Virus record (IMG/VR): IMGVR_UViG_3300021960_000345
Coordinates: 1-29,944 of that record
Source of the DNA: a virus
Strand: one strand, 5' to 3'
DNA length: 29,944 bases
Made by a program: the position numbers and the translations under genes. Of the stretch, positions 1,335 to 29,429 are shown in pieces (position 1 is the stretch's first letter; each line of letters starts with the position of its first letter). The notes beneath the pieces were generated by a model, which did not search any database, was not told where the DNA came from, and saw only the letters and a list, made by a program, of their open reading frames with translations.

Positions 1335-1347
1335 AATATAAAAAAAT

Positions 1348-1896: not shown

Positions 1897-1919
1897 ACCG
1901 AGTTTCATTTTGATAAATT

Positions 1920-1947
1920 AGGGTGGCTATATGCTGCCCTTTTTTTT
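1920..1947 (+). terminator. Intrinsic terminator after the tail tube gene
   Basis: An 8-bp stem (1920-1927 with 1933-1940, two G-U pairs), loop TATAT, then a run of Ts to 1947. Confidence 0.8.
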
Positions 1948-1975
1948 GCTTTATAAATAACAAAAAACAAATAAT

Positions 1976-1993
1976 ATTATTGTATATATATGA
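1976..1993 (+). promoter_or_regulatory. Repeated leader motif over a start codon
   Basis: The 18 bases ATTATTGTATATATATGA are identical at 20644-20661, where they again end over a start codon. A close copy lies at 29452-29468. In all three the first base of the motif is 14 bases before the ATG. It may be a translation start element or a promoter for a leaderless or nearly leaderless message; the sequence alone does not decide. Confidence 0.45.
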
Positions 1994-2331: not shown

Positions 2332-4070
2332 TGGATAATTTACATATACTTAATTTAGCTTCATACAATAGACCTAAAATTAGCGAAGATAAAAATCGTG
2401 ATTGGGTTAATTATGGAGATAACAATGATTACTATTCTTACTTAATTGACCTTTACACAAACTCAACCACTAATAACGCTATTATAAACGGTGTTAGTAA
2501 TATGATTTATGGTAAAGGGTTAGATGCTTTAGATAGTAGCAGAAAACCTAACGAATACGCTTCTATGCGTTCTATATTTTCTGATAGTTGTTTAAGAAAA
2601 ATAACACTTGATTTAAAACTATTAGGAGAAGGTTCTATACAGGTGTTATACAAAGATGGTAACGTAGTAAAGGGAGAACATTTTCCACGTCAAACACTAC
2701 GAGCAGAAAAGTGTAACGAAGATGGAGAGATAGAAGCATACTATTACTATCACGATTGGGCAAACCTAAAAAGAAGTGATAAGCCAAAAAGAATAGCAGC
2801 ATTTGGATTTGGTAACGGTACAGAACCCGAAGTAAAAATTATAAAAAGGTATGTATCGGGTTACGATTATTACTGTCCAGTAGACTATCAAGGTGGTTTA
2901 GCGTACGCAGAACTAGAAAGCGAAGTATCTGATTACCTTATTAATGATGTACAAAACGGTTTTAGTGGAACTAAAGTAGTAAACTTCAATAACGGTGTAC
3001 CAGACAAAGAAAAACAAATACAAGTTAAGAACGATGTAATGCGTAAATTGACTGGTGCAAGAGGCGAAAAAGTAGTAATTGCATTTAACAATAACGCAGA
3101 ATCAAAAACAACTGTTGACGATATACCATTAAACGATGCACCTCAACACTACGAGTATTTATCTAATGAGTGTTCTAATAAGTTAATTGTAGCACACAGG
3201 GTAACAAGTCCTTTACTTTTAGGAATTAGAACAGAAAACAACGGTTTAGGCTCAAATGCAGACGAAATAAAGACCGCTGCGCTACTTTTTGACAACATAA
3301 CAATAAAACCATACCAAGACTTAATTACCGATGCCCTAGACGATATATTAGCGGTTAACGGTATTAGTTTAAAACTTTACTTTAAGACTTTACAACCTTT
3401 AGCATTTATAGAAACTGATAATGCTATTACAGATGAAGCACGAGAAGAAGAAACAGGAGTAAAAGACGAACTAACATTATCTAAAGAAGAAAGTTTTGAT
3501 GATAGTGAAATGTTTGATTTACTTAATGAGTTTGGAGAAGAAGAAGATTTAGAAAATTGGGAATTAGTAGATGAAAGGGAAGTAGATTACGACCAAGAAG
3601 AAACGTTAGATAAAATGATTGGTTTAGCTTCTACAGGAACTGCAAGACCAAACGCTAAAAGTGAACAAGATGGGGAAGCTGACGATATGCGTTTTAAAGT
3701 ACGTTATCAATATGCACCATTAAAAACACAAGCAAATAGTAGAGATTTTTGTAAGAAAATGGTAAATGCTAAAAAGATATACCGTAAAGAAGATATTACA
3801 CAAATGAGTACTAAAGCGGTAAATGCAGGATGGGGATTAAGTGGAGCAGCTACTTACGATATATGGCTTTATAAAGGCGGTGGTGCTTGTCATCATTTTT
3901 GGATGCGCAAAACATATATGGCAAAAGACGTACAACCTGATGCAACTAACCCAAATGCAGAAGTAAGCGTAAATAAGGCAAAGAAAGAAGGTTTTAAACC
4001 TGAAACAAACGACAAACGAGTGGCTAAACGCCCAAAGGATATGCCTAATCAAGGATTTGTAAATAAATAA
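2331..4070 (+). CDS. Portal protein with extra C-terminal Cys/His domain
   Basis: A 579-residue protein. Residues 1 to about 360 match the phage portal pattern: a start with NRDWVNYGDNNDYYSYLIDL, NGVSNMIYGKGL near 53-64, and VTSPLLLGIRTENNGLGSN near 291-309, followed by the helical segment typical of portals. The portal forms the ring at one head vertex through which DNA passes and where terminase docks. Residues about 365-450 are strongly acidic and probably flexible. Residues about 453-535 form a separate module with RDFCKKMVNAKKIYRKEDI and KGGGACHHFWMRKTY, whose Cys and His residues (C474, C520, H521, H522) could bind metal. Ordinary portals lack this part. The gene lies far from the terminase genes, an unusual order. 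The portal call is firm; the role of the C-terminal module is unknown. Confidence 0.85.
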   Translation: MDNLHILNLASYNRPKISEDKNRDWVNYGDNNDYYSYLIDLYTNSTTNNAIINGVSNMIYGKGLDALDSSRKPNEYASMRSIFSDSCLRKITLDLKLLGEGSIQVLYKDGNVVKGEHFPRQTLRAEKCNEDGEIEAYYYYHDWANLKRSDKPKRIAAFGFGNGTEPEVKIIKRYVSGYDYYCPVDYQGGLAYAELESEVSDYLINDVQNGFSGTKVVNFNNGVPDKEKQIQVKNDVMRKLTGARGEKVVIAFNNNAESKTTVDDIPLNDAPQHYEYLSNECSNKLIVAHRVTSPLLLGIRTENNGLGSNADEIKTAALLFDNITIKPYQDLITDALDDILAVNGISLKLYFKTLQPLAFIETDNAITDEAREEETGVKDELTLSKEESFDDSEMFDLLNEFGEEEDLENWELVDEREVDYDQEETLDKMIGLASTGTARPNAKSEQDGEADDMRFKVRYQYAPLKTQANSRDFCKKMVNAKKIYRKEDITQMSTKAVNAGWGLSGAATYDIWLYKGGGACHHFWMRKTYMAKDVQPDATNPNAEVSVNKAKKEGFKPETNDKRVAKRPKDMPNQGFVNK

Positions 4071-5897: not shown

Positions 5898-8800
5898 ATG
5901 TTAGGCAAAAGAATTATCAATACTGCAACAGGGGCAGGAGCAGCCTGTACAACAGATACAGTTCAAATATTAGATGGAGTACCATTCCAGTCTATTGCAA
6001 CATATCAATTTGAGAGTGATGCTGATGACTTAACTGGTAATTATGACGGTAATGATAGTAACGTAACGTATGCTACTGGTAAATTTGGTAATGCAGGGGA
6101 GTTTAATGGGAGTAGTTCTAATGTTACATTACCTGCAGGAATTAATAAAAACAATAATTTTAGTTGGTCTTTTTGGGTCAATTTTGATAGTTTAACTGAT
6201 TATGATACAACTATTGCTTTCCAAAACACATATAGAAATTATTTAGATATTTTAGCTAATGGAACTCTTCATTTTTATGATGGTGTAAGTTTAAATTCGC
6301 CTACAGGAACTGTTACTACAGGAACTTGGTATCACGTTGTTATAACTAAAAGTTCTTCTACAGGAAGAAAAATGTACTTAAATAATTCTGTAGTTGCAAG
6401 TGATTCAGGCACAACTAATTCTATTAGTGGAGGTGGACAAAATATGATAGGTGCTTATAATAGTGGTAGTTCAACCCTTTATTATTTGGATGGCAAAATA
6501 GACCAAGTAAGAGTATACGACAAAGCACTTTCAGCAGGAGCGGTAACAAGCCTTTATAATGAAACAGTTGCAACTGCATCTAATAGTTATATAAATCTAC
6601 CTTCTGGAGTAGCATACTACAAAATGTCTGATGCTACAGACGAAACAGGTTCTTATGATGGGACTGCTAGTAATGTTAATTTCAACGTAGCAGGTAAGTT
6701 TGGTAATGCTGCTGTGTTTAATGGTAGTAGTAGTGGAATTAATTTACCGAGTTCTTTAAATGCTAATGTAATTGACGCTACAGGAGCTTTTTCTATCTCT
6801 ATGTGGATTAATGCAAATGACATAAGTACTATTCAATATTTATTTTGTGCTAATACTACTAATAATATAGATTTAGGTATAAATTCAGACAGTCAAGGAG
6901 TAGGTAAAATAGTTTGGACAGTTTATAATACAAGTTATTCTTATTTAATTTCAACAACAACGATTACAACAAATACTTGGTATAATATTGTTGTTACATA
7001 TAACAATGGTTCAAGAGAATTATTTATAAATGGTGTATCGCAAGGAACTGCAACGAAAACTTTAGTAGAAAGTAGTATAGAACCAACGTTGGGTTATAGA
7101 AATACAGGTGGTTCGGTTCGTTTCAACGGCAAAATAGACCAAGTACGCATATTCGACAGAGCAATAACATCAGACGAAGTAGAAACACTTTATAACGAAG
7201 TACAGTGTATTCCTACTATTGTACCTACAGATAATTTTGAGCCTGTTATATATGATGGTAATGGTGGTACTCAATCTATATCTTCTTTGGATTTCCAACC
7301 TGATTTGGTTTGGATGAAAAACAGAGACCAAGCATTTAATCATAGACTTGCTGATTCTGTAAGGGGTGCTACAAAGTATTTAATAACTAATTTAACTAAT
7401 GCAGAATCAACAAACTCACAAACATTAACTTCATTTAATTTAGATGGATTTACAGTTGGCTCTGATGCTGGGGTAAATTATAATAATAGTTTACAAGTCG
7501 CTTGGAACTGGAAAGCAGGAGGAGCAGCGGTATCAAACACAGATGGAACAATTACAAGTCAAGTATCAGCTAATCAAGATGCAGGGTTTAGTATTGTGAA
7601 GTGGACTAACACAGTAAGTGAAGGCAGTATAGGTCACGGATTAAATCAAAAACCTGAACTTATAATAGCAAAGAATTTGGATGTAAGTGCTAATTGGATT
7701 GTTTATACAGATATAATTGATGGTTCAATGGACTATTTAAGATTAAATACAACTGATTCCAAAGGAAATAGTGGAAGGACATTACCTACATCAAGTGTTT
7801 TTTATTTTGCAAGTGATACTAATGACTACATCGCCTACGCCTTCCATTCAGTAGAGGGATACTCTAAAGTCGGTTTTTACGAAGGAACTGGAGCAGCAGG
7901 GAATAGTATTGTAACAGGGTTTAGACCTGCTTTTGTGATGATTAAGCGTACAGATTCAACAGGTAGTTGGGAAATGATAGACAACAAAAGAAGTCCAGAA
8001 AACGTAAGAGACAGGGTTTTATTTGCAAACTTATCAAATGCTGAACAACAAGGAGACACTCTTGGTTACTATCCAACAAACTTTTTAAGTAATGGCTTTG
8101 AACTTTTACAAGGTAGTAACGGATATAACGCAAACGGTGGTTCATACATCTTTATGGCATTTGCAGAAGAGAACGTACAACCAGAACCAGAGTTAGCTAA
8201 TAGTTTTAACGTAGTTACTTATACAGGTAATGGTACAGATATAACTGTTAATACAGGTCTAAAACCAGATATGGTTTGGATAAAAGAAAGAACAAGTACT
8301 TCAGCTCATAGGATAGTTGATTCCGTAAGGGGTGACAAAAAAAGAATATTTACAAATCTAACCAACGCAGAAAGCGAGGCTGCAGCAGGTGAGGTTCTTC
8401 TTGATAACGGATTTCAAGTTGGGGCAGATAATGGTAGTAATCAAAGCGGAGAAGATTACGTAGCTTGGTGTTGGAAAGCATCTAATGACAGTACTATCGA
8501 TAATGAAGGTAGTATTTCAAGTGTGGTTAGTGCGAATCCTGCAAGTGGGTTTAGTATTGTGAAGTGGGCAGGAAATAATACCGCAGGAGCTACTGTAGGT
8601 CACGGATTATCTTCCGCTCCTGAAATGATTATCATTAAAAATTATAGTCAATCGATTGGTCAAAGATGGGTTATTGGACACAACAATATGGCTTCTTCCT
8701 CGCCTTGGAATTATTATCTTGAATTTGATACAGGTGCACGTGCGGTTAATAATTCAAGGTCATTCAATGGAACTGCTCCAACATCTTCGGTATTTAGTGT

Positions 8801-9798: not shown

Positions 9799-10151
9799 AC
9801 CTTAAATTCTTTTCCCTATCAGAGTTTGATTGTCCTAGTTTACCTAATTCAGGTAAGAATATGGATATTAACTTTCTTTATAAACTTGAACACGCAAGAG
9901 AACTTGCAGCAATACCATTTAAAATCACAAGTGGTTACAGAACAGCAGACCATAACAAAACAGTCGGAGGTGTGCCTAACTCAAGCCACCTTATCGGAGT
10001 TGCAGCAGATATTGCTGTTGGAAGCGGAAGTGAAAGATACATTATACTTAATGCCCTTATTAGAGCAGGATTCAAACGTATTGGAGTTGCAAAAGGATTC
10101 ATCCACTGTGATACAGATGACTCCAAGTCAAACTCTGTTTGGACTTACTAA
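9795..10151 (+). CDS. Endolysin, M15-family peptidase
   Basis: A 118-residue zinc peptidase of the VanY/M15 type (Peptidase_M15_3-like), which cleaves the D-Ala-containing peptide stem of peptidoglycan during lysis. The catalytic signature is clear: SGYRTADHNKTVGG (residues 46-59), SSHLIGVAADI with the zinc ligands H65 and D72, and GFIHCDTD with the third ligand H104, followed by the C-terminal WTY. Length is normal for single-domain phage M15 endolysins. There is no signal peptide, so release needs a holin, and candidates flank the gene on both sides. It overlaps the preceding membrane protein gene by ATGA. Confidence 0.9.
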   Translation: MNLKFFSLSEFDCPSLPNSGKNMDINFLYKLEHARELAAIPFKITSGYRTADHNKTVGGVPNSSHLIGVAADIAVGSGSERYIILNALIRAGFKRIGVAKGFIHCDTDDSKSNSVWTY

Positions 10152-10169
10152 TACCGTAGGCAATACCTT

Positions 10170-10586
10170 ATGTCTGACAAAAAGAAATTTAAAGATACCC
10201 AAGTAGGACAGTTTCTATTAAAGAAGATACCTGACGTTGTTAATGCAGTAGCAGGAGATACTTTAGCAGGGAACGTAATACAAGCCATTATAGGCGGTTC
10301 TGGGATGTCAGAGGAGGATAAGTCCGTAGCACTAAAGAAACTTGATTTAGAGAGGGCTGAGATAGACGGAATAACTCGTAGATGGGTTGCTGATTCTCGT
10401 AGTGGTTCTTGGTTAGCTACTAATGTTAGACCATTAACTTTGATATTCTTTTCTGTAGCTTATGTTATAGGTTGGTTTTATGGTTTAGAATTGAACTCAA
10501 TAACTGGCTTGTTATCTATTGTTATTGGTGGATACTTCGGCTCTAGGGGTGTAGAAAAAGTGTTTGGAGACAAGCTACATAAATAA
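10170..10586 (+). CDS. Holin-like 3-TM protein
   Basis: A 138-residue protein. An N-terminal amphipathic segment is followed by the motif RRWVADSRSGSWLATNVRPL (residues about 70-89), then two membrane helices (TLIFFSVAYVIGWFYGL and SITGLLSIVIGGYFGSR), ending in a basic tail. This is the pattern of the family of phage holins with up to three membrane segments (Holin_3TMs). Position just after the endolysin fits. Holins form the inner-membrane lesion that sets lysis time. With three further small membrane proteins nearby, which of them is the true timing holin cannot be settled from sequence. Confidence 0.7.
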   Translation: MSDKKKFKDTQVGQFLLKKIPDVVNAVAGDTLAGNVIQAIIGGSGMSEEDKSVALKKLDLERAEIDGITRRWVADSRSGSWLATNVRPLTLIFFSVAYVIGWFYGLELNSITGLLSIVIGGYFGSRGVEKVFGDKLHK

Positions 10587-10595
10587 TTTGTTAAT

Positions 10596-10615
10596 AACTT
10601 TTAGTTTAAAAAGTT
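10596..10615. promoter_or_regulatory. Inverted repeat at the early promoter (possible operator)
   Basis: AACTTTT at 10596-10602 pairs with AAAAGTT at 10609-10615 around a 6-base spacer. It touches the expected -33 region of the promoter whose -7 box is at 10638. It could also form a weak AT-only hairpin at the end of the lysis operon. Confidence 0.35.
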
Positions 10616-10645
10616 TACATTTTAAAAAAAAACGAAGTAACTTTG
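10613..10645 (+). promoter_or_regulatory. Early-region promoter
   Basis: The -7 box TAACTTTG at 10638-10645 is a full match to the Bacteroidota TAnnTTTG consensus. The -33 part is weak (GTTT at 10613-10616, spacing 21). A leader of about 60 bases follows before the ATG at 10714, containing a small possible hairpin (GTAGT with ACTAC). Confidence 0.6.
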
Positions 10646-10713
10646 GTGGGTAGTGGGAAACTAACTACTTTATTATATATTTTAATTTTTATAAAAATTT
10701 AATTAATAAATAA

Positions 10714-10956
10714 ATGTCAGAAGATTTAACAATAAGAAATTTAGCAGAAAAAATTGCTAAAGATTTTCAATTATCTGTAAAAGAAAGAACAGATAGTATT
10801 TTAGAATTAGATGCTATATCATATACTAACTTAGGTATAGATAGTACTAAAGCTGAAACAAATAAAGTTAAATCAGATAGTAAATATTTATATAAGTTAA
10901 TTAAAGGATTTAATGAAACTGATGGTAAACTATTACTAAATCATCTTGATTCGTAA
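10714..10956 (+). CDS. Early protein of unknown function, 80 residues
   Basis: First gene after the early promoter. The protein is small, hydrophilic and helical (MSEDLTIRNLAEKIAKDFQL at the start), with no membrane segment or cysteine. I recognise no family. Phage genes at the front of an early operon often act on the host, for example by blocking defence or redirecting host enzymes, but here nothing in the sequence shows that. It ends four bases before the NinG-like gene. Confidence 0.55.
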   Translation: MSEDLTIRNLAEKIAKDFQLSVKERTDSILELDAISYTNLGIDSTKAETNKVKSDSKYLYKLIKGFNETDGKLLLNHLDS

Positions 10957-18726: not shown

Positions 18727-19896
18727 ATGAGGGTAAAGAAAACAATAGCCTTTTATAAGCTAAAGGAACTACAAAGCAGAATACGAATAGTCAAAGGAGG
18801 TACATCAGCTTCTAAGACTATTTCTATTCTTTGTTTACTAATAGACTACGCTATAAAGAATGAAGGCAAAGAAATAAGTGTAGTAAGTGAATCAATACCA
18901 CACCTTCGTAGAGGTGCTTTAAAGGACTTCTTAGGCATCTTAAAGGGTCTTAATAGGTATAAGGATACCCAGTTCAATAAAAGTACCTTAAAATACACCT
19001 TTACAAATGGTAGCTATATAGAGTTCTTTTCAACTGACCAACCAGACAAGCTAAGAGGGGCAAGAAGAACAGACCTATATATAAACGAATGTAATAATGT
19101 ACCCTTTGACGCTTACAATCAATTAGCAGTAAGAACAAGTGGCACTATATGGTTAGATTATAATCCAAGTAATTTGTTTTGGGTTGAAAAAGAATTAATA
19201 GGTAAAGAAGATACGGATTACATTACACTAACCTATAAAGACAATGATGCACTACCTGAATCCATAGTAAGAGAAATAGAAAAAGCAAAAGAGAAAGCAA
19301 AGACCTCAACCTATTGGGCTAACTGGTGGAAAGTGTATGGTCTTGGTTTGCAGGGAAACCTTGAGGGGGTATGTATTCCTGACTGGAAAGAGATAGATAA
19401 CATACCAGAAGAAGCAAGACTATTGGCTTATGGAATGGACTTTGGATATTCAGTTGACCCTACGACATTAATAGCACTTTACAAATGGAATGATGCCTAT
19501 ATCTATGATGAGGTTCTATATAAGAAAGGAATGCTTAACAGGGATATAAGTAGATACCTAACTCAATTAGATATAACAGAAAATATAGTAGCTGATTCAG
19601 CAGAACCTAAATCAATAGCAGAACTAAAAGGATATGGTCATTCTATATATGGAGTAACTAAGGGAAGAGATTCGGTAGTATATGGATTGAATCTAATAAA
19701 CCAAAACGAAATATATGTAACTGCAAGAAGTAAGAACCTTAAACGTGAATTAGCAGGATATGTATGGGCAAAAGACAAAGAAGGAAACCAACTGCAAAAA
19801 CCTACAGGGGAGCATCCCGACTGCATAGATGCTGCTAGGTATGTATTAACAGACCAATTAGAGAATCCTAACAAAGGAGAATATTTTATATATTAA
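18727..19896 (+). CDS. terL: Terminase large subunit
   Basis: A 389-residue packaging motor of the Terminase_3 type. The N-terminal ATPase has a deviant Walker A KGGTSASKT (residues 23-31) and Walker B TDLYINE (115-121). The C-terminal RNase H-like nuclease has the acidic residues in GMDFGYSVDPT (D238), VADSAEPKSI (D290) and HPDCIDAARY (D365 or D368). It cuts concatemers and pumps DNA into the head through the portal encoded near 2331. Length is near the usual 390-430 for this family. Because terminase type is linked to packaging strategy, a circularly permuted genome packaged headful-wise would be expected for many Terminase_3 phages; this agrees with the arbitrary window ends. Confidence 0.95.
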   Translation: MRVKKTIAFYKLKELQSRIRIVKGGTSASKTISILCLLIDYAIKNEGKEISVVSESIPHLRRGALKDFLGILKGLNRYKDTQFNKSTLKYTFTNGSYIEFFSTDQPDKLRGARRTDLYINECNNVPFDAYNQLAVRTSGTIWLDYNPSNLFWVEKELIGKEDTDYITLTYKDNDALPESIVREIEKAKEKAKTSTYWANWWKVYGLGLQGNLEGVCIPDWKEIDNIPEEARLLAYGMDFGYSVDPTTLIALYKWNDAYIYDEVLYKKGMLNRDISRYLTQLDITENIVADSAEPKSIAELKGYGHSIYGVTKGRDSVVYGLNLINQNEIYVTARSKNLKRELAGYVWAKDKEGNQLQKPTGEHPDCIDAARYVLTDQLENPNKGEYFIY

Positions 19897-19927
19897 TTTG
19901 GTAGTTAAAAAAATGTTTATATCTTTA
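19897..19927 (+). promoter_or_regulatory. Promoter of the moron-like gene, copy 2 of the element
   Basis: TTTG at 19897-19900, a 19-base spacer and TATCTTTA at 19920-19927 give a near-consensus Bacteroidota promoter. It contains the 19-base block GTTAAAAAAATGTTTATAT shared with 15867-15885. Confidence 0.65.
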
Positions 19928-19954
19928 CAGAGTAAAACAAAAACAATTATACAA

Positions 19955-20098
19955 ATGAAAAATAAATCAAACATCAATCAATTTTTAAACTTGAAATTTC
20001 AAATTATTGAATCGTTAACAAAACAAGGTTATAAATCAAATTGGACTTATCCAACATTAAAGACCTTAAACATTCATCAAATACATTTCAACGGATAA
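19955..20098 (+). CDS. Moron-like small gene with its own promoter and terminator, 47 residues
   Basis: I chose the ATG at 19955; a TTG at 19898 would place the frame over the promoter. The product is basic and Asn/Lys/Thr-rich (MKNKSNINQFLNLKFQIIES at the start, aromatic near the middle), with no recognised domain. The gene is bracketed by a near-consensus promoter and a G-C rich terminator (20107-20124), so it forms an independent unit between terminase and tail genes. That is the classical layout of a moron, an accessory gene expressed apart from the phage programme. Function unknown; host modification or defence against other phages are possibilities. Confidence 0.6.
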   Translation: MKNKSNINQFLNLKFQIIESLTKQGYKSNWTYPTLKTLNIHQIHFNG

Positions 20099-20106
20099 AA
20101 CAAACA

Positions 20107-20124
20107 GGGGGGAAACCCCCTTTT
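20107..20124 (+). terminator. Intrinsic terminator after the moron-like gene
   Basis: GGGGG at 20107-20111 pairs with CCCCC at 20116-20120 around a GAAA tetraloop, followed by four Ts and a mixed T/A tract. Confidence 0.8.
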
Positions 20125-20143
20125 ATTAACCAATAATTATATT

Positions 20144-20338
20144 ATGGAAAACAATACAGAGTATATTATGATTAAAAAATTAATTGCTAAAGAAAACAGA
20201 AAGCAAGTATTTAAGTATATCTTAGGAGGTGCATTGGCAGGAGTTGGTGGAGCATTAAGTTTGATATTCTTTTTAAATATGTTAGTAGCCTTTGACTGGA
20301 TTAGTGATGCAATAGTTAGAATCATTGCAGGATTATAA
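20144..20338 (+). CDS. Small membrane protein, 64 residues, unknown
   Basis: A charged N-terminal 20 residues is followed by YILGGALAGVGGALSLIFFL and another hydrophobic stretch, giving one long or two short membrane helices with a glycine-rich face (GGALAGVGGA) suited to tight helix packing. The terminator just upstream shows that it starts a new unit. No family is recognised. A host-takeover or exclusion function is possible but unproven. Confidence 0.5.
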   Translation: MENNTEYIMIKKLIAKENRKQVFKYILGGALAGVGGALSLIFFLNMLVAFDWISDAIVRIIAGL

Positions 20339-20339
20339 G

Positions 20340-20558
20340 ATGAGGTTAGCCTGTTGGTACGAGCAAATATATGTAGTACAGAAACCCACTAAGCAGGGAG
20401 GGTATAAATGCGAAGAGGTTACACTCTATATAGACTACAAAGGAAAGAACAGAATAGAAGGTAAGCAAATAGCCTATAAGCAAAACAGCTTAGAACTAGA
20501 GAGTAAAATAGAAGAGGCTTATGAATATGCTTACAAAAGATTTATATTAGGACATTAA
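20340..20558 (+). CDS. Small protein, 72 residues, unknown
   Basis: I chose the ATG at 20340 (one base after the preceding stop) over a TTG at 20325. The protein begins MRLACWYEQIYVVQKPTKQG and is mixed alpha/beta, with EVTLYIDYKGKNRIEGKQIA as a clear beta hairpin region and a helical, acidic end. No motif or family is recognised. A terminator lies 28 bases after the stop. Confidence 0.5.
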   Translation: MRLACWYEQIYVVQKPTKQGGYKCEEVTLYIDYKGKNRIEGKQIAYKQNSLELESKIEEAYEYAYKRFILGH

Positions 20559-20585
20559 GGATTTTCATTTTGATTAGTAGGAATT

Positions 20586-20610
20586 AGGTAGCAGAGATGT
20601 TACCTTTTTC
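20586..20610 (+). terminator. Intrinsic terminator before the tail genes
   Basis: An 8-bp stem (20586-20593 with 20598-20605, one G-U pair) with a GAGA tetraloop, followed by a T run. Confidence 0.75.
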
Positions 20611-20643
20611 TTTTTATTACCTTTTATACAAATTAGTAATTAA

Positions 20644-20661
20644 ATTATTGTATATATATGA
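20644..20661 (+). promoter_or_regulatory. Repeated leader motif over a start codon, copy 2
   Basis: Identical to 1976-1993 over 18 bases, with the same 14-base distance to the ATG; a related third copy lies at 29452-29468. It opens the tail gene block. Confidence 0.45.
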
Positions 20662-21320
20662 AGATTGAAATAAACGTACCTGATTCATTATCAGAAATTA
20701 CTTTAGAACAGTATCAGAAGTTTGAAAAGCTAAACACTAAAGAAAATGAAGATACTACCTTCTTACTTCAAAAGATGGTACAGATATTTTGCAATCTTGA
20801 TTTAAAAGACGTAGCAACAATAAAATACAAAAGCGTACAAGAGATTGTAATGCACTTAAATAAAGTGTTTGATACAAAGCATTCATTAATTCCTACGTTT
20901 GATTTAAACGGTGTTAAAATGGGTTTTATACCTGTATTAGACGATATGACATTAGGGGAATATATAGACCTTGACGAAAATTTAGGGGATTGGTCAACAA
21001 TGCACAAAGCAATGAGCGTATTATATAGACCAGTTACATATAGCAAAGGGCATAAATACCAAATAGAAGAATATACAGGTATGATAAATGCCGAAGCAAT
21101 GAAACAAGCCCCTTTGGATGTAGTGTTTGCTGCAATGGTTTTTTTTTGGAATTTAAGCAACGAGTTAACACAAACTATCCTGAACTATTTACAGCAGGTA
21201 ACGGAGAAGGAAATGACTACTCAACAGAAGCAAACTTTGGGACTAAGTGGGGATGGTATCAGTCGGTCTATGGAATCGCTAAAGGCGATGTTACCAAGTT
21301 TAATAACATTACAAAACTAA
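20658..21320 (+). CDS. Tail assembly chaperone, short form
   Basis: A 220-residue protein with mixed helical and strand content (KIEINVPDSLSEITLEQYQK at the start, LIPTFDLNGVKMGFIPVLDD and TLGEYIDLDENLGDWSTMHK in the middle), located before the tail structural genes. In siphoviruses this place holds the tail assembly chaperone pair (lambda G and G-T) that handles the tape measure. After residue 163 the gene has the T_TTT_TTT slippery site and a second open frame that continues 84 residues beyond the shift. Bases 21147-21320 are thus coding in two frames. The 57 residues beyond the shift in this form include NLSNELTQTILNYLQQ and look like normal protein, so both products are probably made. Chaperone function is inferred. 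Confidence 0.75.
   Translation: MKIEINVPDSLSEITLEQYQKFEKLNTKENEDTTFLLQKMVQIFCNLDLKDVATIKYKSVQEIVMHLNKVFDTKHSLIPTFDLNGVKMGFIPVLDDMTLGEYIDLDENLGDWSTMHKAMSVLYRPVTYSKGHKYQIEEYTGMINAEAMKQAPLDVVFAAMVFFWNLSNELTQTILNYLQQVTEKEMTTQQKQTLGLSGDGISRSMESLKAMLPSLITLQN
21140..21146 (+). other. Predicted -1 ribosomal frameshift site T_TTT_TTT
   Basis: A run of nine Ts (21139-21147) contains an in-frame heptamer T TTT TTT (zero-frame codons TTT at 21141 and TTT at 21144). Slipping back by one base continues with TTG GAA TTT AAG in the frame that ends at 21400. No strong stimulatory hairpin is visible just downstream; a weak CCTG/CAGG pairing exists at 21179-21200. Confidence 0.7.
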
Positions 21321-21400
21321 ACGTACACGAATGTTTAATGTATTTAGCATTTGAAAAAGATAAAGTAGAACTAGAAAAACAATTAATAAAACGTAAATGA
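21146..21400 (+). CDS. Tail assembly chaperone, frameshift extension (G-T type)
   Basis: This frame has no credible start of its own (only a TTG inside the T run) and is best read as the end of a -1 frameshift product that fuses residues 1-163 of the preceding protein to 84 further residues, total about 247. The extension contains FGTKWGWYQSVYGIAKGDVT and ITKLNVHECLMYLAFEKDKV, a pattern that I recognise from Bacteroidota siphoviruses at exactly this location. It is conserved enough to be a real domain that binds the tape measure. Its stop overlaps the next gene by four bases. An independent start at TTG 21146 is the alternative. Confidence 0.7.
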   Translation: MEFKQRVNTNYPELFTAGNGEGNDYSTEANFGTKWGWYQSVYGIAKGDVTKFNNITKLNVHECLMYLAFEKDKVELEKQLIKRK

Positions 21401-21855
21401 AAGGTTTTTACAATTTAACGGATAAACTAAAAGATGCTTTAATTGCAGAACCATTTGTAAATACAGTTACGTTTGGTAGTTTAGATGATGTAGATTTAAA
21501 TAAGCAAACTATATTTCCATTGTCCCATATAACAGTAAACAATACAACAGTAGGAAGTAAAACACTTACATTCAATGTATCGATACTAGCTATGGACATT
21601 GTAGATATAAGCAAGGAAGCAACTACCGATATATTTGTAGGAAACGATAATGAACAAGACGTATTAAATACACAGTTAGCGTTACTTACTAGAATCATTA
21701 ATATATTACAACGTGGAGACTTATATACAGAATTGTATCAAGTACAAGGAGATGTAAGCTGTGAGCCTTTCGTGGATAGATTTGAGAACAAGTTAGCAGG
21801 ATGGGCAGCAACGTTTGACGTAGTAGTACAAAACGATATGACAATATGCGACTAA
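21397..21855 (+). CDS. Tail terminator-like/minor tail protein
   Basis: A 152-residue protein with MKGFYNLTDKLKDALIAEPF at the start, LNKQTIFPLSHITVNN (34-49), ILAMDIVDISKEATTDIFVG (63-82), GNDNEQDVLNTQLALLTRII (82-101) and SCEPFVDRFENKLAGWAATF (121-140). This strongly conserved pattern is familiar from Bacteroidota siphovirus tail clusters next to a HK97 gp10-like protein, in the position of the tail terminator (lambda gpU type). I infer that it caps the tail tube after the tape measure has set its length. It overlaps both neighbours by 4 and 10 bases. Confidence 0.65.
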   Translation: MKGFYNLTDKLKDALIAEPFVNTVTFGSLDDVDLNKQTIFPLSHITVNNTTVGSKTLTFNVSILAMDIVDISKEATTDIFVGNDNEQDVLNTQLALLTRIINILQRGDLYTELYQVQGDVSCEPFVDRFENKLAGWAATFDVVVQNDMTICD

Positions 21856-22367
21856 CAAAAACAGAAGCAGCTTTAGAGGCGTTTAAAAACTTTGTCATTC
21901 AACAAGCACGTACAAGGCTGTCTAAAGGGCGTAAGAACGTTTCTAAGGAACTTTATAATAGTTTGAAGGGTAACATAAAGGTTATGCCCAATTCTATTGC
22001 CTTAGACTTTGAGATGGAGGATTATGGTATATTCCAAGATAAGGGGGTAAGCGGTACGGAAAAGAAATACAATACTCCTTATAGTTATAAATCTAAAATG
22101 CCCCCTATTAAACCTTTAGCAAAATGGGCGCAAAGTAAGAACATAAGGTTAAGAGATGAAAAAGGAAAGTTTAAAAAAGGAAGTTACAATACAATAGGTT
22201 TTTTGATAGCAAGAAGTATATATAGAAAAGGAATCAAACCAAGTTTATTCTTTACTAAACCATTTGAACAAGGATTTAAAAAACTACCAGATGAACTAAT
22301 AAATAGTTTTGGCTTAGACGTAGAAGATTTCTTAGCCTTTACATTAAAAGAAGATAGATTAAGATGA
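21846..22367 (+). CDS. HK97 gp10-like head-tail joining protein
   Basis: A 173-residue basic protein. N-terminal helices (TEAALEAFKNFVIQQARTRL) are followed by the strand core DYGIFQDKGVSGTEKKYNTP (residues 58-77), and residues 110-135 contain LRDEKGKFKKGSYNTIGFLI. This arrangement is typical of the gp10-like family that connects the tail to the head adaptor. It lies away from the portal/connector genes (2331-4577) but in the same likely late transcript as the tail genes. It overlaps the preceding gene by 10 bases and the following one by four. Confidence 0.65.
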   Translation: MRLTKTEAALEAFKNFVIQQARTRLSKGRKNVSKELYNSLKGNIKVMPNSIALDFEMEDYGIFQDKGVSGTEKKYNTPYSYKSKMPPIKPLAKWAQSKNIRLRDEKGKFKKGSYNTIGFLIARSIYRKGIKPSLFFTKPFEQGFKKLPDELINSFGLDVEDFLAFTLKEDRLR

Positions 22368-23959
22368 GTACAAAAATAAATGTAAGAAGTCCGTTTTATT
22401 TAAAGTATGGAGAACCTGCTTTACCTGCGGTTGCTCTTGATTGCGCAACAATTAATTTACAAGGTTTCGCAGTAGACCAATTCGGTAATATTACTTTACC
22501 AGATTCAGATTATGGTACAATAGCATCTTATACATCTTCAGCAGGAGATTTTACTGATGGTAGGTTTGCCACAGTAGGAAGTGATACAAGTAGAACAGTA
22601 ACGTTTTCCATAAGTATACCACCAAACTTTAGTAATGCAGGAGATACAACAATAGACTGTGATGCAACCGCTACACAACCTCAATACGTTTGTACAGGAG
22701 GTGTAACACTAAATGGTAGTATTCCTAATCAGTCAATAGATACCGATGGAGATATAGCAACAATAGATTTATCATCTTACTTTACTCAAGGTGTTGCTCC
22801 AATTGCTAACTATACTATTACTAATAATTATTTAGATTTATTTACCCATAGTATTAATGGAAACACGTTAACGATAATTGGTACAAGTAGAGGAGGTACT
22901 AAAAATATGTATGTAGAGGCGAGTGATGCAGACCCATTAACTTGTAATGCTACACAAACAATACAGATTACTACTACTGCGCAAGTTGCATACACTTGTA
23001 CTGATGCTTATATTTCAGGTGGTTCTATTTCACAATCAGGTACAATAACAGACCCTACTGTAAACGGAACTATTACTGCGGTAAAAGATTCAAGTGGGGG
23101 TAGTACAATAACAAGCTATCCTGCAAACACGACAGGAAGCGATAGGGATGTAACATTATATTTTGATATAACTGTACCAACTGGGTATTCTAATAGTGGT
23201 AGTACTGTAGAATGTTCTAAAACATTTTCACAACCTACCGCAGCTTTACCAACCTTTACCTGTGCAATAGCTTCTTTAACAAATCAAGCTGTATATTCAT
23301 CAGGTGCAATAGTAAAAGGTATTGCAAACGTAGGAACTATTAGTGGATTTACTCCTATTGGATTTGATTCCGTTACAGTCGATACACCAAGAACAGTTAC
23401 TTACACGATTACACCACCTGCAAGTGGGTATTCTAATAGTGGAGGTTCTGATATAAGTTGTGTTATTACAATGACCCAACCTGCAATAAGACCAACGGCA
23501 GGAAATGAATTATGGTACACAGGTGGAGTAGGTCTTGACTTTATGACTAAAGCACAATATCAAGCAGTAGACCCATCAGTTACAACCTTGCAATTAAACT
23601 TTAACACTTACGAAGGTGCATTAGAGGCAAATGGATTATATGACCCTAAGAAAAGAATTACAGATAAAGCGGTAGTACCATTAAGGTTTTCTTCTACAAT
23701 ACCTGAAAATCTCGTTAACACTTACGCATTCCACGATAGAGGCTCACTTAATGCGTCATTATGGGTATCAAACAATTATTCTTACTTCAATCCTTCAGGA
23801 GGCTTATATTGGCGAATAACTAAGGTAAGAGAAAGTGGTAGTTATATATCTCCTGCATTTTTACAAACAAGTTACTATATGAAATTAGAACCATCAGGAC
23901 TTATAACAGAAATTTGGTTTGTTGATTGGTATGCAGCAACCTTTACTAAAATAGCTTAA
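22364..23959 (+). CDS. Large repeat-containing virion protein with Ig-like Cys-bracketed units
   Basis: A 531-residue protein. An N-terminal segment MSTKINVRSPFYLKYGEPAL is followed by four beta-rich units of about 80-100 residues (approximately 24-107, 108-210, 211-297 and 298-380). Units 1, 3 and 4 each start with Cys in a pattern like F/Y-x-C and end in C-x(4,5)-QP (DCDATATQP, ECSKTFSQP, SCVITMTQP), so they look like Ig-like domains with a potential Cys pair. Residues 381-531 are a different C-terminal domain with ELWYTGGVGLDFMTKAQYQA. The protein sits between the neck and baseplate-like genes and may project from the tail or head to touch host surface sugars. No enzyme motif. Confidence 0.6.
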   Translation: MSTKINVRSPFYLKYGEPALPAVALDCATINLQGFAVDQFGNITLPDSDYGTIASYTSSAGDFTDGRFATVGSDTSRTVTFSISIPPNFSNAGDTTIDCDATATQPQYVCTGGVTLNGSIPNQSIDTDGDIATIDLSSYFTQGVAPIANYTITNNYLDLFTHSINGNTLTIIGTSRGGTKNMYVEASDADPLTCNATQTIQITTTAQVAYTCTDAYISGGSISQSGTITDPTVNGTITAVKDSSGGSTITSYPANTTGSDRDVTLYFDITVPTGYSNSGSTVECSKTFSQPTAALPTFTCAIASLTNQAVYSSGAIVKGIANVGTISGFTPIGFDSVTVDTPRTVTYTITPPASGYSNSGGSDISCVITMTQPAIRPTAGNELWYTGGVGLDFMTKAQYQAVDPSVTTLQLNFNTYEGALEANGLYDPKKRITDKAVVPLRFSSTIPENLVNTYAFHDRGSLNASLWVSNNYSYFNPSGGLYWRITKVRESGSYISPAFLQTSYYMKLEPSGLITEIWFVDWYAATFTKIA

Positions 23960-23960
23960 T

Positions 23961-24947
23961 ATGGCACTTAAAACAGTACAATTACAAGTATATATATATG
24001 AGGGTACATCAGGCTCTTATACAAACGGTGATTTAAAATACACGTTACAAAACTCTACAATAGGAGATGATAATAATGTAGTATTTGAAATAGCAGAACT
24101 TGTTAGGGATTATTTATATTTAACATTCAATGATGATTATTTATCTAAAACCATTTGGGTTACAACGGTAGCTACTTTGTTAGATGAAAACAATAATGTA
24201 TTTACTTATGGCTCTCCTGTTACAAATACATATTTAGCAACAGATGGGTATGGGTATTTTGAAGATGGTGCAAGTCCTGAATTATCAAGAAATGCATTAA
24301 TGACTGCAAATAGTATTTACTTACCAGAAAACACAGCAGGAAAACTACCAATATATGCAGAAGGTGTTGGTAAGATTACTATTGATAGCGTAGATACACA
24401 AATAACCGACAATGACAATTCAAATCAAAAAATACAGTACGTTACAATACCTGCTAATAGTTCTATTGTACAGGTGTACGATACAGACGATACAACACTA
24501 CTTAAAACTGTAACAGTTAATAATGTATGTGAACCTAAGTTTACTCCTTATAAAGTAACCTTTGTAAATAAGTATGGTGCATATCAGGATTTATGGTTCT
24601 TTAAAAAAGCAATAGAATCATTTAACGTTACAGACGAAAAATATAAAAGAAATACCTTATCTAATGACACGGCAACATACGCAAAATATTTAGGTCAAGA
24701 ACAAAGGTATAATACAAACGCAACAAAAAGTATTACACTAAATACAGGTTTTATAAATGAGGATAATAACTCTACTATTGAGGAATTGTTTTTATCTGAA
24801 AATGTATGGATTAAATATAATGGAGATACATTACCTGTAATACCCAAAAGTAAATCACTTACATTAAAAACAAGTTTGAACGATAAGATGTCAAACTATA
24901 CAATTAATTTTGATTTTGCGTTTAATAAGATAAACAATGTACGTTAA
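23961..24947 (+). CDS. Conserved tail protein, possibly distal tail (Dit)-like
   Basis: A 328-residue protein. The N-terminal half is beta-rich (VQLQVYIYEGTSGSYTNGDL), with VVFEIAELVRDYLYLTFNDD (residues 40-59). The second half has YKVTFVNKYGAYQDLWFFKK (198-217) and YKRNTLSNDTATYAKYLGQE. I recall this architecture from tail clusters of Bacteroidota phages, immediately before a large baseplate-like protein. A distal tail or tail tip component fits position and size, but no decisive motif is seen. The stop overlaps the next ATG by one base. Confidence 0.55.
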   Translation: MALKTVQLQVYIYEGTSGSYTNGDLKYTLQNSTIGDDNNVVFEIAELVRDYLYLTFNDDYLSKTIWVTTVATLLDENNNVFTYGSPVTNTYLATDGYGYFEDGASPELSRNALMTANSIYLPENTAGKLPIYAEGVGKITIDSVDTQITDNDNSNQKIQYVTIPANSSIVQVYDTDDTTLLKTVTVNNVCEPKFTPYKVTFVNKYGAYQDLWFFKKAIESFNVTDEKYKRNTLSNDTATYAKYLGQEQRYNTNATKSITLNTGFINEDNNSTIEELFLSENVWIKYNGDTLPVIPKSKSLTLKTSLNDKMSNYTINFDFAFNKINNVR

Positions 24948-27628
24948 TGCTTACACTACAATTATATATAGAAAACAAACAAGTAGATTTATACGATGAT
25001 GAATCTGTAACTCTTGTACAATCAATTCAAGATGTAAGGGATATTGAAAAAGTATTTACTGACTTTACAAGAACGTTTTCTGTACCTGCTTCTAAAACAA
25101 ATAATAGGATATTTCAGCATTTTTACAACTATCATATTATAGGATTTGATGCAAGAAAAAAGATAGAAGCAAAACTCTTCTTAAATAATGAATTGTTTAA
25201 AGAAGGTAAAATTAAATTAGAAGGTGTAACAAGAAGAAACAATAAAGCGCATACATATAAAGTAACGTTTTATGGTAATGGTGTAAACTTAAAAGATTTA
25301 TTAGGAGAAGATAAAATAGATACATTATCCCAAATACAAGAATCATTTAACTTTACATATAGTAATGCAAATATTAAAAGCTATTTAGCAGATGGTTTAG
25401 ATGTTACCGTCAAAGATACGACATATCAAGATGCAATTATATTCCCCTTAATATCTCATACTAAAAGGTTTATTTATGATTCAGGGTTTTCAGGTACAAG
25501 TGCAAATTCGGATAAGATAAATAACATAGCATACGAAGCAGCCGAATCAGGTAATCACGGTTTAGAGTTGTCGCAGTTAAAACCTGCTATAAGAGTATAT
25601 CCTATTATAAAAGCTATTGAAGCTGATTTCAATATTACTTTTAGTGATGACTTTTTTAATGCACAAAACGAATCTTTTTACAACCTGTATTTATGGATGC
25701 ACAATAAAACAGGAGGTTTATTTGTAGATGATGAAAATGAAGCCCCAGTAGGTTCTTTTGAATTAAATGATGATTATGGTGCAGTATTAGATTTGTATGA
25801 CAATTACTTTGTTACACCACAAGCAGACCAAAGAGGAAAAGAAGCAAGGGCGCAAAGAATATTAAATGTATCTATATATCCAAGTGTTGGAGATGAATTT
25901 ACTTTTACTATTTATAAAAATGGTAATGTATTTGAGCAGTACGCAAACATAAGTAGAGATACAACATCTTTAAGATATGAGATTATAGATTTAGATATTG
26001 ATGCAGGTAAATATAACTTTACAGTAGAATCTGCAACCCCATCAACTTATGATATTGATTTTTATGTTAAAAGAAAAAATAACTTAGGATGGGGGTACAG
26101 AGATATACATTTTAGCGGTACTTCGGAAGTGTTATCAGTTGTACAAATCAATACAAGTAAGAAGTTACCCAACATTAAGATTATAGACTTTCTTACTTCT
26201 TTATTTAAGATGTTTAATTTAACATCGTTCCAAAATGATAATGGGATTATAGAAGTTAAAACATTGGATAATTTTTATAGTGAAAGTAGTAAAATATGGA
26301 ATATAACAGAATACTTAGATAAAACAGAATCAACAGTAGATAATGTTTTACCATACAAGCAAGTAGATTTTAGTTATGAGGGTTTAACTAATTTCTTTGC
26401 AAAGAATCATAACGAATTATTTAATGCAGAATGGGGAAGCGAATATTATACTGCTACCGATTTAGACAAAATAGAGGGAGAAGTATATACAGTTAAAATA
26501 CCTTTAGAACATTTTAAATACGAAAGGTTACAAGATGTTGCTAATTCATCTTTTAAGGATTTGTTATGGGGATGGAGTGCGGATATAAAACAAGAGGCTA
26601 CATTAGGAAAACCCCTTTTGTTTTACCCTATTAACCAAACAAAAACAATAGGTGTTATAAATAGTGATGGTAGCGTAGATTCACAATCTAAAGTTTACAT
26701 ACCAAGTAATTCAGTTAGATTAACAGATTCAAAAAATATAAACTTTAGTGCAGAACCTAACGAGTTTTTAGGTACACCATTTAAGAAAACATTATTTGCA
26801 GAATATTATCAAAACTACATAAAAGAAATATTTGACCCACAAAGAAGATTATCTACAATCAAAGCGTTTTTACCTTTATCAATGTTACTTGAATATACAC
26901 TTGCAGATAAAATACAGGTGTTTGATGGTTTATATAAAATAAATAAAATCACAACAAACTTTGAAACGAAACAATCTTCATTAGAGTTAATAAATATAAA
27001 ATCTCAAGCAGGAGAGTTAATAGAAGATACGATTATTGTACCCGATAAATTTGTTCCAAACTCGGTTTGCTTTACTGTTGACCAAACAGATATATTTGCT
27101 GACAATTTTATTATAACTACTGATGCAAGTTGTGATGTAGAAGGATTAGAAATAAAATCTACAACTGAAGTAATACCAAATGCCGTAGATGCAGGAAACA
27201 AACCGCAAACAGTTGACCATTCAGTACCTATACCTGTTACACAAGCACTTATTAGTTTATCACCAGCAGGATTTACAGGTAGTAATACAGTAATGTTTTC
27301 AGCATTAATAGATGAAACAGGACAAATTGGTAATGTATCTAATTGGGCAGAATATGGAGTTTTCTGGACAACTAGCGTACACGCTTTAAATTCTACTGAT
27401 TTTTCAGTATTAGATACAAATTCATTATTAACAAAAATAGCTGTACAAAGTTCTGCTTTAAATAAACATTCAGCACCAAAAAGTTTTAGTTTAAAAGTAA
27501 CTGCATTATCACCTAACACAACATACTACTATAAAGCATATATAAAAACTAATGCAAATAGTAATTATAATACAGGGGATGAAACTATAGCAATAACAGA
27601 TACAGGATTTAGAAAAACAAATATATGA
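24947..27628 (+). CDS. Baseplate hub/tail tip protein with C-terminal fibronectin-like domain
   Basis: An 893-residue protein. The N-terminal part matches a large tail-tip protein of Bacteroidota siphoviruses: MLTLQLYIENKQVDLYDDES, then FTDFTRTFSVPASKTNNRIF (residues 37-56), GFDARKKIEAKLFLNNELFK (66-85) and YKVTFYGNGVNLKDLLG (103-119). Its middle carries folded beta domains, and residues about 400-690 still resemble the hub. The last 120 residues (about 770-890) look like a fibronectin type III-like domain, with NWAEYGVFWT and LSPNTTYYYKAYIKTNANS. It probably forms the central tail tip that penetrates or binds the host, placed before the tape measure. No peptidase or lysozyme motif is visible. 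Confidence 0.65.
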   Translation: MLTLQLYIENKQVDLYDDESVTLVQSIQDVRDIEKVFTDFTRTFSVPASKTNNRIFQHFYNYHIIGFDARKKIEAKLFLNNELFKEGKIKLEGVTRRNNKAHTYKVTFYGNGVNLKDLLGEDKIDTLSQIQESFNFTYSNANIKSYLADGLDVTVKDTTYQDAIIFPLISHTKRFIYDSGFSGTSANSDKINNIAYEAAESGNHGLELSQLKPAIRVYPIIKAIEADFNITFSDDFFNAQNESFYNLYLWMHNKTGGLFVDDENEAPVGSFELNDDYGAVLDLYDNYFVTPQADQRGKEARAQRILNVSIYPSVGDEFTFTIYKNGNVFEQYANISRDTTSLRYEIIDLDIDAGKYNFTVESATPSTYDIDFYVKRKNNLGWGYRDIHFSGTSEVLSVVQINTSKKLPNIKIIDFLTSLFKMFNLTSFQNDNGIIEVKTLDNFYSESSKIWNITEYLDKTESTVDNVLPYKQVDFSYEGLTNFFAKNHNELFNAEWGSEYYTATDLDKIEGEVYTVKIPLEHFKYERLQDVANSSFKDLLWGWSADIKQEATLGKPLLFYPINQTKTIGVINSDGSVDSQSKVYIPSNSVRLTDSKNINFSAEPNEFLGTPFKKTLFAEYYQNYIKEIFDPQRRLSTIKAFLPLSMLLEYTLADKIQVFDGLYKINKITTNFETKQSSLELINIKSQAGELIEDTIIVPDKFVPNSVCFTVDQTDIFADNFIITTDASCDVEGLEIKSTTEVIPNAVDAGNKPQTVDHSVPIPVTQALISLSPAGFTGSNTVMFSALIDETGQIGNVSNWAEYGVFWTTSVHALNSTDFSVLDTNSLLTKIAVQSSALNKHSAPKSFSLKVTALSPNTTYYYKAYIKTNANSNYNTGDETIAITDTGFRKTNI

Positions 27629-27765
27629 TAGAAAATATATTAAACTTATTGGAGTTTGCAAGAAACGAAAAGTGGCAAGGTAAACATATAGATATTGCTT
27701 TAGGCAAAAACAAATACCCCGAATCAATTAAAGAAGCGTACCAACAATTTAGAAAGGAACTATGA
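27625..27765 (+). CDS. Small protein between tail tip and tape measure, 46 residues
   Basis: The frame overlaps the tail tip stop by four bases and the tape measure ATG by four bases, which supports coupled translation. The product starts MIENILNLLEFARNEKWQGK and is a charged, partly helical peptide with an aromatic middle. No family recognised. A minor tail or assembly role is inferred from place. Confidence 0.55.
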   Translation: MIENILNLLEFARNEKWQGKHIDIALGKNKYPESIKEAYQQFRKEL

Positions 27766-29429
27766 GCATAAAGAAAACAATAGAATTAGAAGCTAAAGTA
27801 GATAAGGCTGAAAAAGATTTAAAAGGCGTAGCTGATAGTGTACAACGCATAGACGATAACTTAACTGACGTAAAAGAAACCACGGGAGGAGTTGCAAAAG
27901 GTGTAAAGGGTATTGGCAACGCTATAAAAGCAGCAGGAATCGGATTGGCTATTGCAGCTTTTTCTAAACTTGCAGAGGTATTTAATCAAAATCAAAAAGT
28001 AACAGATGCTTTTAGTACTGCCTTTGAGGCATTAAGTTTAGCATTTAATGATTTCTTTAGATTTCTTGATTCAAACGTAGGAACTATTATAGATTATTTT
28101 AAAGGCTTGTTTGACAATCCTGTACAATCTTTAAAGAACTTTGGTCAAGCGATAGTAGACAACATTATAGAAAGGGTAAGTAGTGCATTAGATGCTTTAG
28201 GATTCTTAGGAGATGCTGTTGTAAAAGTGTTTAGCGGAGATTTTGCAGGTGCGGCAGAAAGCGCAAAGAATGCAGGAAAAGAGCTATTTGATGTTGTTAC
28301 AGGAGTAAATAATACATTTGACAAAGTAGCTGAGGTATTACCTACTGTTGTAGATGGTATAACTAATTATGCTAAATCAACTGTAGATGCAGCAAGAGCA
28401 ACAGTAGACCTAAACAAACAAGCGGAGGTAGCAGCGGTTATCAATCAAGGTCTTATTGAGAAGTACGATAGACAAGCCGAACAGCAAAGACAAATACGAG
28501 ATGACGAAAGCAAGACTATTGCAGAAAGAATTGCAGCCAATAATAAGTTAGGCGAAGTATTAGAAGAGCAACAAAAATTAATGCTTGAAAACGTAGATAT
28601 TACGATTAAAGCAGCACAAGCTGAATACAATAAAAACCAAAATCAAGAAAACTATATTGCTTTACTAGAAGCACAAAACGAACGTGAAGCAGTATTAGCG
28701 CAAATAGAAGGGTTTAGGTCAGAACAATTAATTAATAAAATATCCCTTGATAAGGAAGCATTAGAATTACAAAAAGAAGCTATTGAGACAGAAGATGAGC
28801 GAATAGCTAAAATTGCTGAATTAACTAACTTTGAAATACTAACTGCGGTTGAAAAGTTACAACGTGATAGGGATAATGCCTTAGCAGAACTTGAGTTACT
28901 AGAAGCAACAGAAGCAGAAAAACAAAAGATAAGAGACCATTACGCAGAAGAAGAAGAAAAGCTAACAAAACTAACTACTGCAAATAAATTAGATTTAGCT
29001 TCAAATGCTATGGGCGATTTAGCTACAATTTTTGGAGAAGAAAGTAAAGCAGGTAAGGCAGCAGCAATAGCACAAACAACAATAGAAACCTATAAAGGTG
29101 CTACTTCAGCTTTTGCATCATTATCAGGTATTCCAGTAGTTGGTCCTGTATTGGGTGGAATAGCAGCAGCAGCAGCGGTAGCAGCAGGTATTGCAAACGT
29201 TAAAAAGATAACTTCTATTGGTCCTGCTGTATCAGGTGGTGGTGGTTCAACACCTTCAGTACCCCAAGCACCAAGTTTTAACGTAGTAGGAGCAGCACCT
29301 GAAAACCAATTAGCACAAGCAATAGGAGAAAAAGAAGATAAGCCAATTAAAGCGTTTGTAGTTAGTAACGATGTAACAAATGCACAAGCATTAGATAGAA
29401 ACATTATAGAAGGGGCTTCAATAGGTTAA
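27762..29429 (+). CDS. Tape measure protein
   Basis: A 555-residue protein with features of a phage tape measure: an N-terminal coiled coil (residues 1-45), a hydrophobic Ala/Gly-rich helix (GIGNAIKAAGIGLAIAAFSK, near 49-68), long helical Glu/Gln/Lys-rich coiled-coil stretches (about 235-420) and an Ala/Gly-rich hydrophobic part near 445-490 (GIPVVGPVLGGIAAAAAVAA). Tape measure length sets tail length at roughly 0.15 nm per residue (established for siphoviruses), so about 80 nm would be expected, a short siphovirus tail. It acts with the chaperone pair encoded 6 kb upstream. Normally the tape measure precedes the tail tip genes, so this order is unusual. Confidence 0.8.
   Translation: MSIKKTIELEAKVDKAEKDLKGVADSVQRIDDNLTDVKETTGGVAKGVKGIGNAIKAAGIGLAIAAFSKLAEVFNQNQKVTDAFSTAFEALSLAFNDFFRFLDSNVGTIIDYFKGLFDNPVQSLKNFGQAIVDNIIERVSSALDALGFLGDAVVKVFSGDFAGAAESAKNAGKELFDVVTGVNNTFDKVAEVLPTVVDGITNYAKSTVDAARATVDLNKQAEVAAVINQGLIEKYDRQAEQQRQIRDDESKTIAERIAANNKLGEVLEEQQKLMLENVDITIKAAQAEYNKNQNQENYIALLEAQNEREAVLAQIEGFRSEQLINKISLDKEALELQKEAIETEDERIAKIAELTNFEILTAVEKLQRDRDNALAELELLEATEAEKQKIRDHYAEEEEKLTKLTTANKLDLASNAMGDLATIFGEESKAGKAAAIAQTTIETYKGATSAFASLSGIPVVGPVLGGIAAAAAVAAGIANVKKITSIGPAVSGGGGSTPSVPQAPSFNVVGAAPENQLAQAIGEKEDKPIKAFVVSNDVTNAQALDRNIIEGASIG

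Follow-up and report, generated by a model that had tools for sequence, protein, structure and literature searches.

Does a virion-block gene that runs through nine consecutive T's, beyond which two reading frames stay open, encode two proteins by programmed recoding and, if so, does the slip take place at the ribosome or at RNA polymerase? We addressed this question in the window, i.e. the whole stretch of DNA analysed, a virus contig of 29,944 bases, and by comparison with relatives of the locus.

Layout of the locus

The features of interest in the window are the following:
20658–21320, plus strand: ORF0, the zero-frame, G-like product of 220 aa, from an ATG to a stop at 21318–21320; PHROG_32199 (unknown function).
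21139–21147, plus strand: T9 run, the putative recoding site, read GTT TTT TTT TGG; at least nine T's in 244/246 loci.
21140–21146, plus strand: T_TTT_TTT heptamer, in frame, as read from the letters of the window.
21146–21400, plus strand: GT-like −1 extension of 84 residues, from Leu (TTG, 21146–21148) to TGA (21398–21400).
21146–21320, plus strand: dual-coded overlap of the zero and −1 frames, 175 nt; synonymous observed/expected ratio (O/E) 0.36 versus about 1 upstream.
21397–21855, plus strand: next gene of the virion block; phrog_30964 (unknown).
27762–29429, plus strand: tape-measure-like gene of the same block, about 6.4 kb downstream; PHROG tape measure families, E down to 1.6e-15.

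A −1 shift at the T9 run gives a fusion of 163 + 84 = 247 aa. The first-pass annotation had placed an in-frame heptamer at 21140–21146 within a nine-T run, joined residues 1–163 to an open frame of 84 residues and described 175 bases as coding in two frames; the coordinates agree, the 247-aa fusion was recovered when recomputed, and the overlap does measure 175 nt and does carry the dual-coding constraint described below. Note that any run of nine T's holds a T_TTT_TTT heptamer, whatever its codon phase. The ATG of the next gene (21397) and the TGA that ends the GT frame share bases as ATGA, an overlap found in 66/105 representatives, and the full length of ORF0 is kept in 80 close relatives.

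Inside the predicted genes of the window, no T or A run other than the T9 of ORF0 reaches nine; two other runs of nine, an A9 at 10624 and a T9 at 11426, are intergenic by prediction. The contig carries virion genes towards each end, with capsid/portal at 328–4070 and terminase to tape measure at 18727–29429, a pattern as in a circularly permuted genome.

Conservation of the T run and dual coding

With G as query, IMG/VR yielded 408 confirmed relatives. We fetched 80 of these, and every one has T9 or T10 at the corresponding codon, together with the same −1 frame. Relatives at about 28–35% identity, reached by repeating the search with a divergent profile, again had T9 or T10 only. Because selection for the site itself had to be avoided, we also searched with the GT domain alone (query trimmed after the run) and with the pre-slip part of G alone; the T run was present in 83/84 loci and in 79/79 assessable loci, respectively. 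In the pooled set, with protein identity down to about 29%, nine or more consecutive T's occur in 244 of 246 loci. Conservation at this level is not due to chance. These counts are not independent, since the loci, mostly from metagenome contigs, share phylogeny; the effect of this was limited by 90% clustering and by the use of disjoint pairs. The counts given search by search overlap, some contigs having been fetched in more than one search, and cultured relatives are thinly covered in the databases.

Of the two pooled loci without the run, one (L153) stops at a contig edge, and its run is visible in the divergent-profile search. The other (L176, positions 2610–3220 of a metagenome contig) lacks about 50 codons of G including the T run, its zero frame being open through to the usual tail; the site is gone and a GT fusion is therefore impossible there. 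This deletion may be a genuine exception or an assembly artefact.

The arrangement extends to a cultured phage and to a prophage. The Nonlabens phage P12024L has CTT TTT TTT TAT at the matching position (T9 at 8443–8451 in the locus 8001–8695), followed by a homologous −1 frame. Its record lists gp40 and gp41 as two hypothetical genes, gp41 starting from an internal ATG; sequence comparison shows that they form one recoded gene. The phages P12024L and P12024S, the sole detectable homologues in the cultured-phage collection, are true homologues that share both the phase of the T9 and the −1 frame, at about 27–30% identity to the window proteins, P12024L having been deposited without recoding. 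A prophage on a 3.9-Mb contig, drawn from the family (Flavobacteriaceae) of the Winogradskyella MAG behind one of the loci (L166), has the same run and −1 frame arrangement; tape-measure-like and capsid-like genes, assigned by reading the ORFs, come after the pair. Judging from two MAGs labelled Flavobacteriaceae and Winogradskyella, two Bacteroidetes MAGs and the Nonlabens phages, the hosts are presumably Bacteroidota.

Synonymous differences, counted in 48 disjoint pairs of relatives, reveal how the two frames are used. Through most of G before the run, the zero-frame O/E is about 0.6–1.2 in populated windows, and about 1.0–1.2 across the hundred columns before the run; it drops to 0.36 in the overlap. 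The −1 frame, for its part, is under strong constraint within the overlap and relaxed past it. Such a suppression of synonymous change downstream of the run is the pattern expected if both frames are translated, and on these substitution counts we conclude that they are. At the three run codons, about 33 synonymous differences would be expected and 0 were counted, with mostly normal variation up to the codon just before.

The first-pass annotation had also stated that the second frame has no credible start. This holds for most relatives: 64/105 representatives have no ATG, GTG or TTG from the upstream stop to the conserved WGWY motif, and an ATG is found in 2 only. It needs qualifying for the window, in which the T run itself creates a possible start, TTG at 21146; this codon is not conserved, being TTA in relatives with ATC or ACA after the run. 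The locus thus shows the arrangement of a G/GT pair, with overlapping ORFs joined by a −1 shift and the second ORF lacking a start of its own.

Two readings that dispense with recoding can be set against these data. That the pair is a single long gene broken by a sequencing error or a natural frameshift mutation draws on the error-prone nature of homopolymers, on the deletion in L176 and on another locus, L202, which has the run and an extra G downstream, close to the contig end. We rejected it as having practically no chance of being right: the same run and frame recur across hundreds of independent assemblies, as well as in the cultured phages and the prophage of the 3.9-Mb contig, and the zero-frame tail after the run is conserved as a protein, under dual-coding constraint. 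Two separate genes, the second started at TTG 21146, at a downstream ATG or by coupling, are suggested by that TTG in the window and by the annotation of P12024L gp41; however, the 64/105 representatives devoid of a start codon before the WGWY motif speak against this arrangement, which would moreover have no need of an invariant T9. It was likewise rejected, as very improbable, since the −1-frame conservation starts at the run, upstream of the ATG annotated in P12024L. The comparison of relatives supports a conserved site, dual coding and a second frame without independent start, and on this comparison programmed −1 recoding almost certainly happens at the T9 run.

Ribosome or RNA polymerase

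Several features of the site are those of −1 ribosomal frameshifting. The in-frame T_TTT_TTT heptamer is conserved in all relatives with the run, and GT lies in the −1 frame in every relative. In E. coli, both UUY codons are efficient shifters, and U_UUU_UUC and U_UUU_UUU are among the efficient heptamers (PMC4066793); early E. coli tests found U_UUU_UUU weak next to A_AAA_AAG (PMC5009743). A ribosomal site might be expected, though not obligatorily, to be conserved as a heptamer only, with a free Z base. This is not what we observed. Changing the Z base from T to C would be silent in both frames (TTC is Phe; CTA and CTG are Leu), yet the change is absent: TTC occurs in 0/105 and 0/101 cases at the slip Phe columns, compared with 137/573 (24%) at six other conserved Phe columns. 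Likewise, a Z change (TTC/CTR) was found in 0/45 disjoint pairs versus 11/30 at another doubly silent Leu column of the same overlap. We also scanned the DNA of IMG/VR with a degenerate pattern, TTYTTYTAYNAYTTRGGVAAYGA, which encodes F-F-Y-x-L-G-N-E and accepts either TTT or TTC for each Phe. All 80 readable loci have TTT TTT preceded by NTT, and none has TTC. By comparison, U_UU.C is if anything better than U_UU.U among tetramers in E. coli (PMC4066793).

The length of the run is maintained as well. It stays at nine or more across three codon phases, though seven T's would suffice for the heptamer, and the run gains a T at one end where one is lost at the other. One phase is NTT TTT TTT TNN; two loci (L139 and L142) have the phase TTT TTT TTT CTG, and other relatives have T10 forms. 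One locus (L335, around position 2004; genome G208) has T9 in the third codon phase, GGT TTT TTT TTG, which makes it a natural case for telling the role of run length from that of the heptamer. A 3′ stimulatory structure, a common but not obligatory element of ribosomal sites, was not seen: downstream RNA structure was not detectable (mean z about 0 in 45 relatives; z of +1.0 in the window), and an Rfam scan of the site returned nothing.

Known cases of transcriptional slippage offer a second standard of comparison. In bacteria, programmed slippage occurs on runs of nine A or T, A9 or T9 (PMC1088944, PMC5009743), and the locus has a conserved homopolymer of this kind at the ORF junction. E. 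coli RNA polymerase slips from seven T's upwards and prefers poly(T), A runs having to be somewhat longer; at T8 it makes about 10% single-base deletions (PMC6260861). A further mark of such systems is the under-representation of long A/T runs in other coding sequence, and this is indeed found in the 837 kb of other nonredundant coding sequence scanned from the relatives' contigs. A8 runs number 97 against 129 expected (O/E 0.75) and A runs of at least nine 19 against 77.5 (O/E 0.25). There are 6 T runs of at least nine against 14.2 expected, and 3/6 are leftover G/GT copies, which leaves 3 true cases. T runs are depleted from length 7 up, and long runs are avoided in all three phases. We tried phase-specific avoidance of T7/T8 as a discriminator, which proved weak: 51 runs in heptamer phase against 115 expected, and 37 out of phase against 59.

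Polymerase slippage accounts for the conservation pattern no less well than ribosomal frameshifting does, and the pattern suggests that the slip occurs during RNA copying rather than, or in addition to, translation. The locus would then be a G/GT-type recoding module in which one gene yields a 220-aa G-like protein and a minor 247-aa fusion, the first 163 residues being common to both and followed in the fusion by a conserved 84-residue helical domain. RNA polymerase would omit one U (or add two) on the T9 template in a fraction of the transcripts, and ordinary translation of the slipped transcripts would produce the fusion. We infer both the polymerase as agent and the minor abundance of the fusion.

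The main competitor is classical −1 ribosomal frameshifting on T_TTT_TTT, in which two tRNA-Phe would slip back one base with no extra stimulator. The heptamer kept in frame in every relative with the run and the constant −1 position of GT suit it well, as do the efficiency of U_UUU_UUU as a heptamer in E. coli (PMC4066793) and the experimentally known phage G/GT systems, which are cases of ribosomal frameshifting (PMC5009743). That same precedent counts against the polymerase, and so does the constant −1 direction, given that polymerase slippage also yields +1 products, insertion being commoner than deletion (PMC6260861); the dual-coded overlap may, however, have locked the frame at −1. An invariant UUU at Z could also stem from host tRNA-Phe pairing, the somewhat stronger depletion of T7/T8 elsewhere in heptamer phase leaves room for some cost of ribosomal slipping, and replication slippage could also lie behind the avoidance of long runs. 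On the other side, a ribosomal mechanism does not account for a Z base that is never C, a change both doubly silent and allowed at the E. coli ribosome (PMC4066793), for the nine or more T's kept in three phases when seven would do, or for the absence of downstream structure; nor does the weakness of U_UUU_UUU next to A_AAA_AAG in early E. coli tests (PMC5009743) favor it. Ribosomal frameshifting is thus a serious possibility, if not our preferred one. The run-length depletion and the signals at the slip site match published polymerase properties; we therefore rank polymerase slippage somewhat ahead, and consider it the main mechanism with a probability of about 0.55. As to the −1 programmed frameshift of the first-pass annotation, conservation and the dual-coding constraint lend strong support to the recoding; the ribosome as its agent is not established.

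Function of the module and its place among known systems

Sequence profiles of Pfam, PHROG, NCBIfam and PDB gave no named family for the G and GT products. The AF2 model of G (mean pLDDT 82) is mostly helical with two beta hairpins, and that of GT consists of helices at lower confidence than G (pLDDT 70); Foldseek comparison of both models with the PDB returned nothing significant. In BFVD, the matches to G comprise many homologues from uncultured phages, the protein of P12024S and, as a weak match (E 0.026, prob 0.98, TM about 0.4), a single entry that bears the name tail assembly chaperone. The pair lies behind the terminase region and upstream of the tape measure gene, about 6.4 kb from it with several genes between; elsewhere in the window, a candidate tail tube gene (1348–1896) is without a named family.

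Given a tape measure gene further along the block, a role in tail assembly is our best guess, by analogy rather than homology, and a probable one: we infer that the products act as chaperones, probably working in a set ratio like lambda gpG and gpGT. The label 'tail chaperone pair' of the first-pass annotation finds backing in the G/GT-like architecture, in the position upstream of the tape measure and in the weak fold match, and none in a sequence family. Similarly, its 'recognisable conserved tail-cluster domain' is strongly conserved; neither Pfam nor PHROG has a family that matches the extension, and the description as a recognisable tail-cluster domain therefore lacks support from family searches. 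The module could instead be recoded as described and its products serve another virion or assembly function. This is rather unlikely in view of the G/GT-like architecture upstream of the tape measure and of the chaperone-named BFVD match, though the profile searches against Pfam, PHROG and NCBIfam gave no function, no PDB fold was matched, and the block lies behind the terminase with other genes between the pair and the tape measure.

Two further candidate relatives were considered. The 'tail assembly chaperone' of FpV9 was rejected, hhalign showing no relation. By hhalign, AGN89393 of Flavobacterium phage 6H is related to G as a remote homologue (prob 82%, E 1.1e-5). Its gene, at 10044–10927 on the minus strand, has a frame that seems broken near TGT TTT TTC TAT; the same site was not seen in the reading frames of the corresponding region, and the unannotated ORF that follows has no GT match. 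This layout may reflect recoding, a sequencing error or a different gene arrangement.

As with lambda gpG/gpGT, a zero-frame protein and a −1 fusion carrying a C-terminal domain come from a single gene, which sits in the virion block upstream of the tape-measure gene. The slip site of lambda G/GT is a G_GGA_AAG-type heptamer, whereas here it is an invariant T9/T10 homopolymer. The locus further differs from lambda in that its products match no family or solved fold, in that the 175-nt overlap brings G close to the fusion in length, and in that the pair stands behind the terminase, several genes before the tape measure. Tail chaperones of T4-like phages are reportedly the subject of a paper by Vladimirov et al. 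(2022). A second likeness is to Thermus thermophilus dnaX, Shigella mxiE and IS-element slippage, in which a conserved homopolymer of about nine A/T likewise gives two frames, and in which long runs are likewise avoided in other genes (PMC1088944, PMC5009743). Those are cellular, plasmid or IS genes for which slippage has been reported, whereas here slippage would act on a phage virion-block gene and is deduced from sequence.

A literature search for a slippage-type tail-chaperone case found none. To our knowledge, no tail-chaperone case with RNA polymerase slippage has been described. At roughly even odds, these Bacteroidota phages, a large family with hardly any cultured members, set the ratio of two overlapping virion-assembly proteins, probably tail chaperones, by polymerase slippage on the invariant T9 and not at the ribosome. 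If so, the outcome that lambda obtains at the ribosome would already be obtained at the preceding step, a parallel to dnaX of Thermus and of E. coli. In hundreds of phages from the environment, the pair would be split or truncated by ordinary gene calling, as happened to gp40/gp41 of P12024L, and predictors tuned to heptamer plus structure may name the wrong frameshift mechanism.
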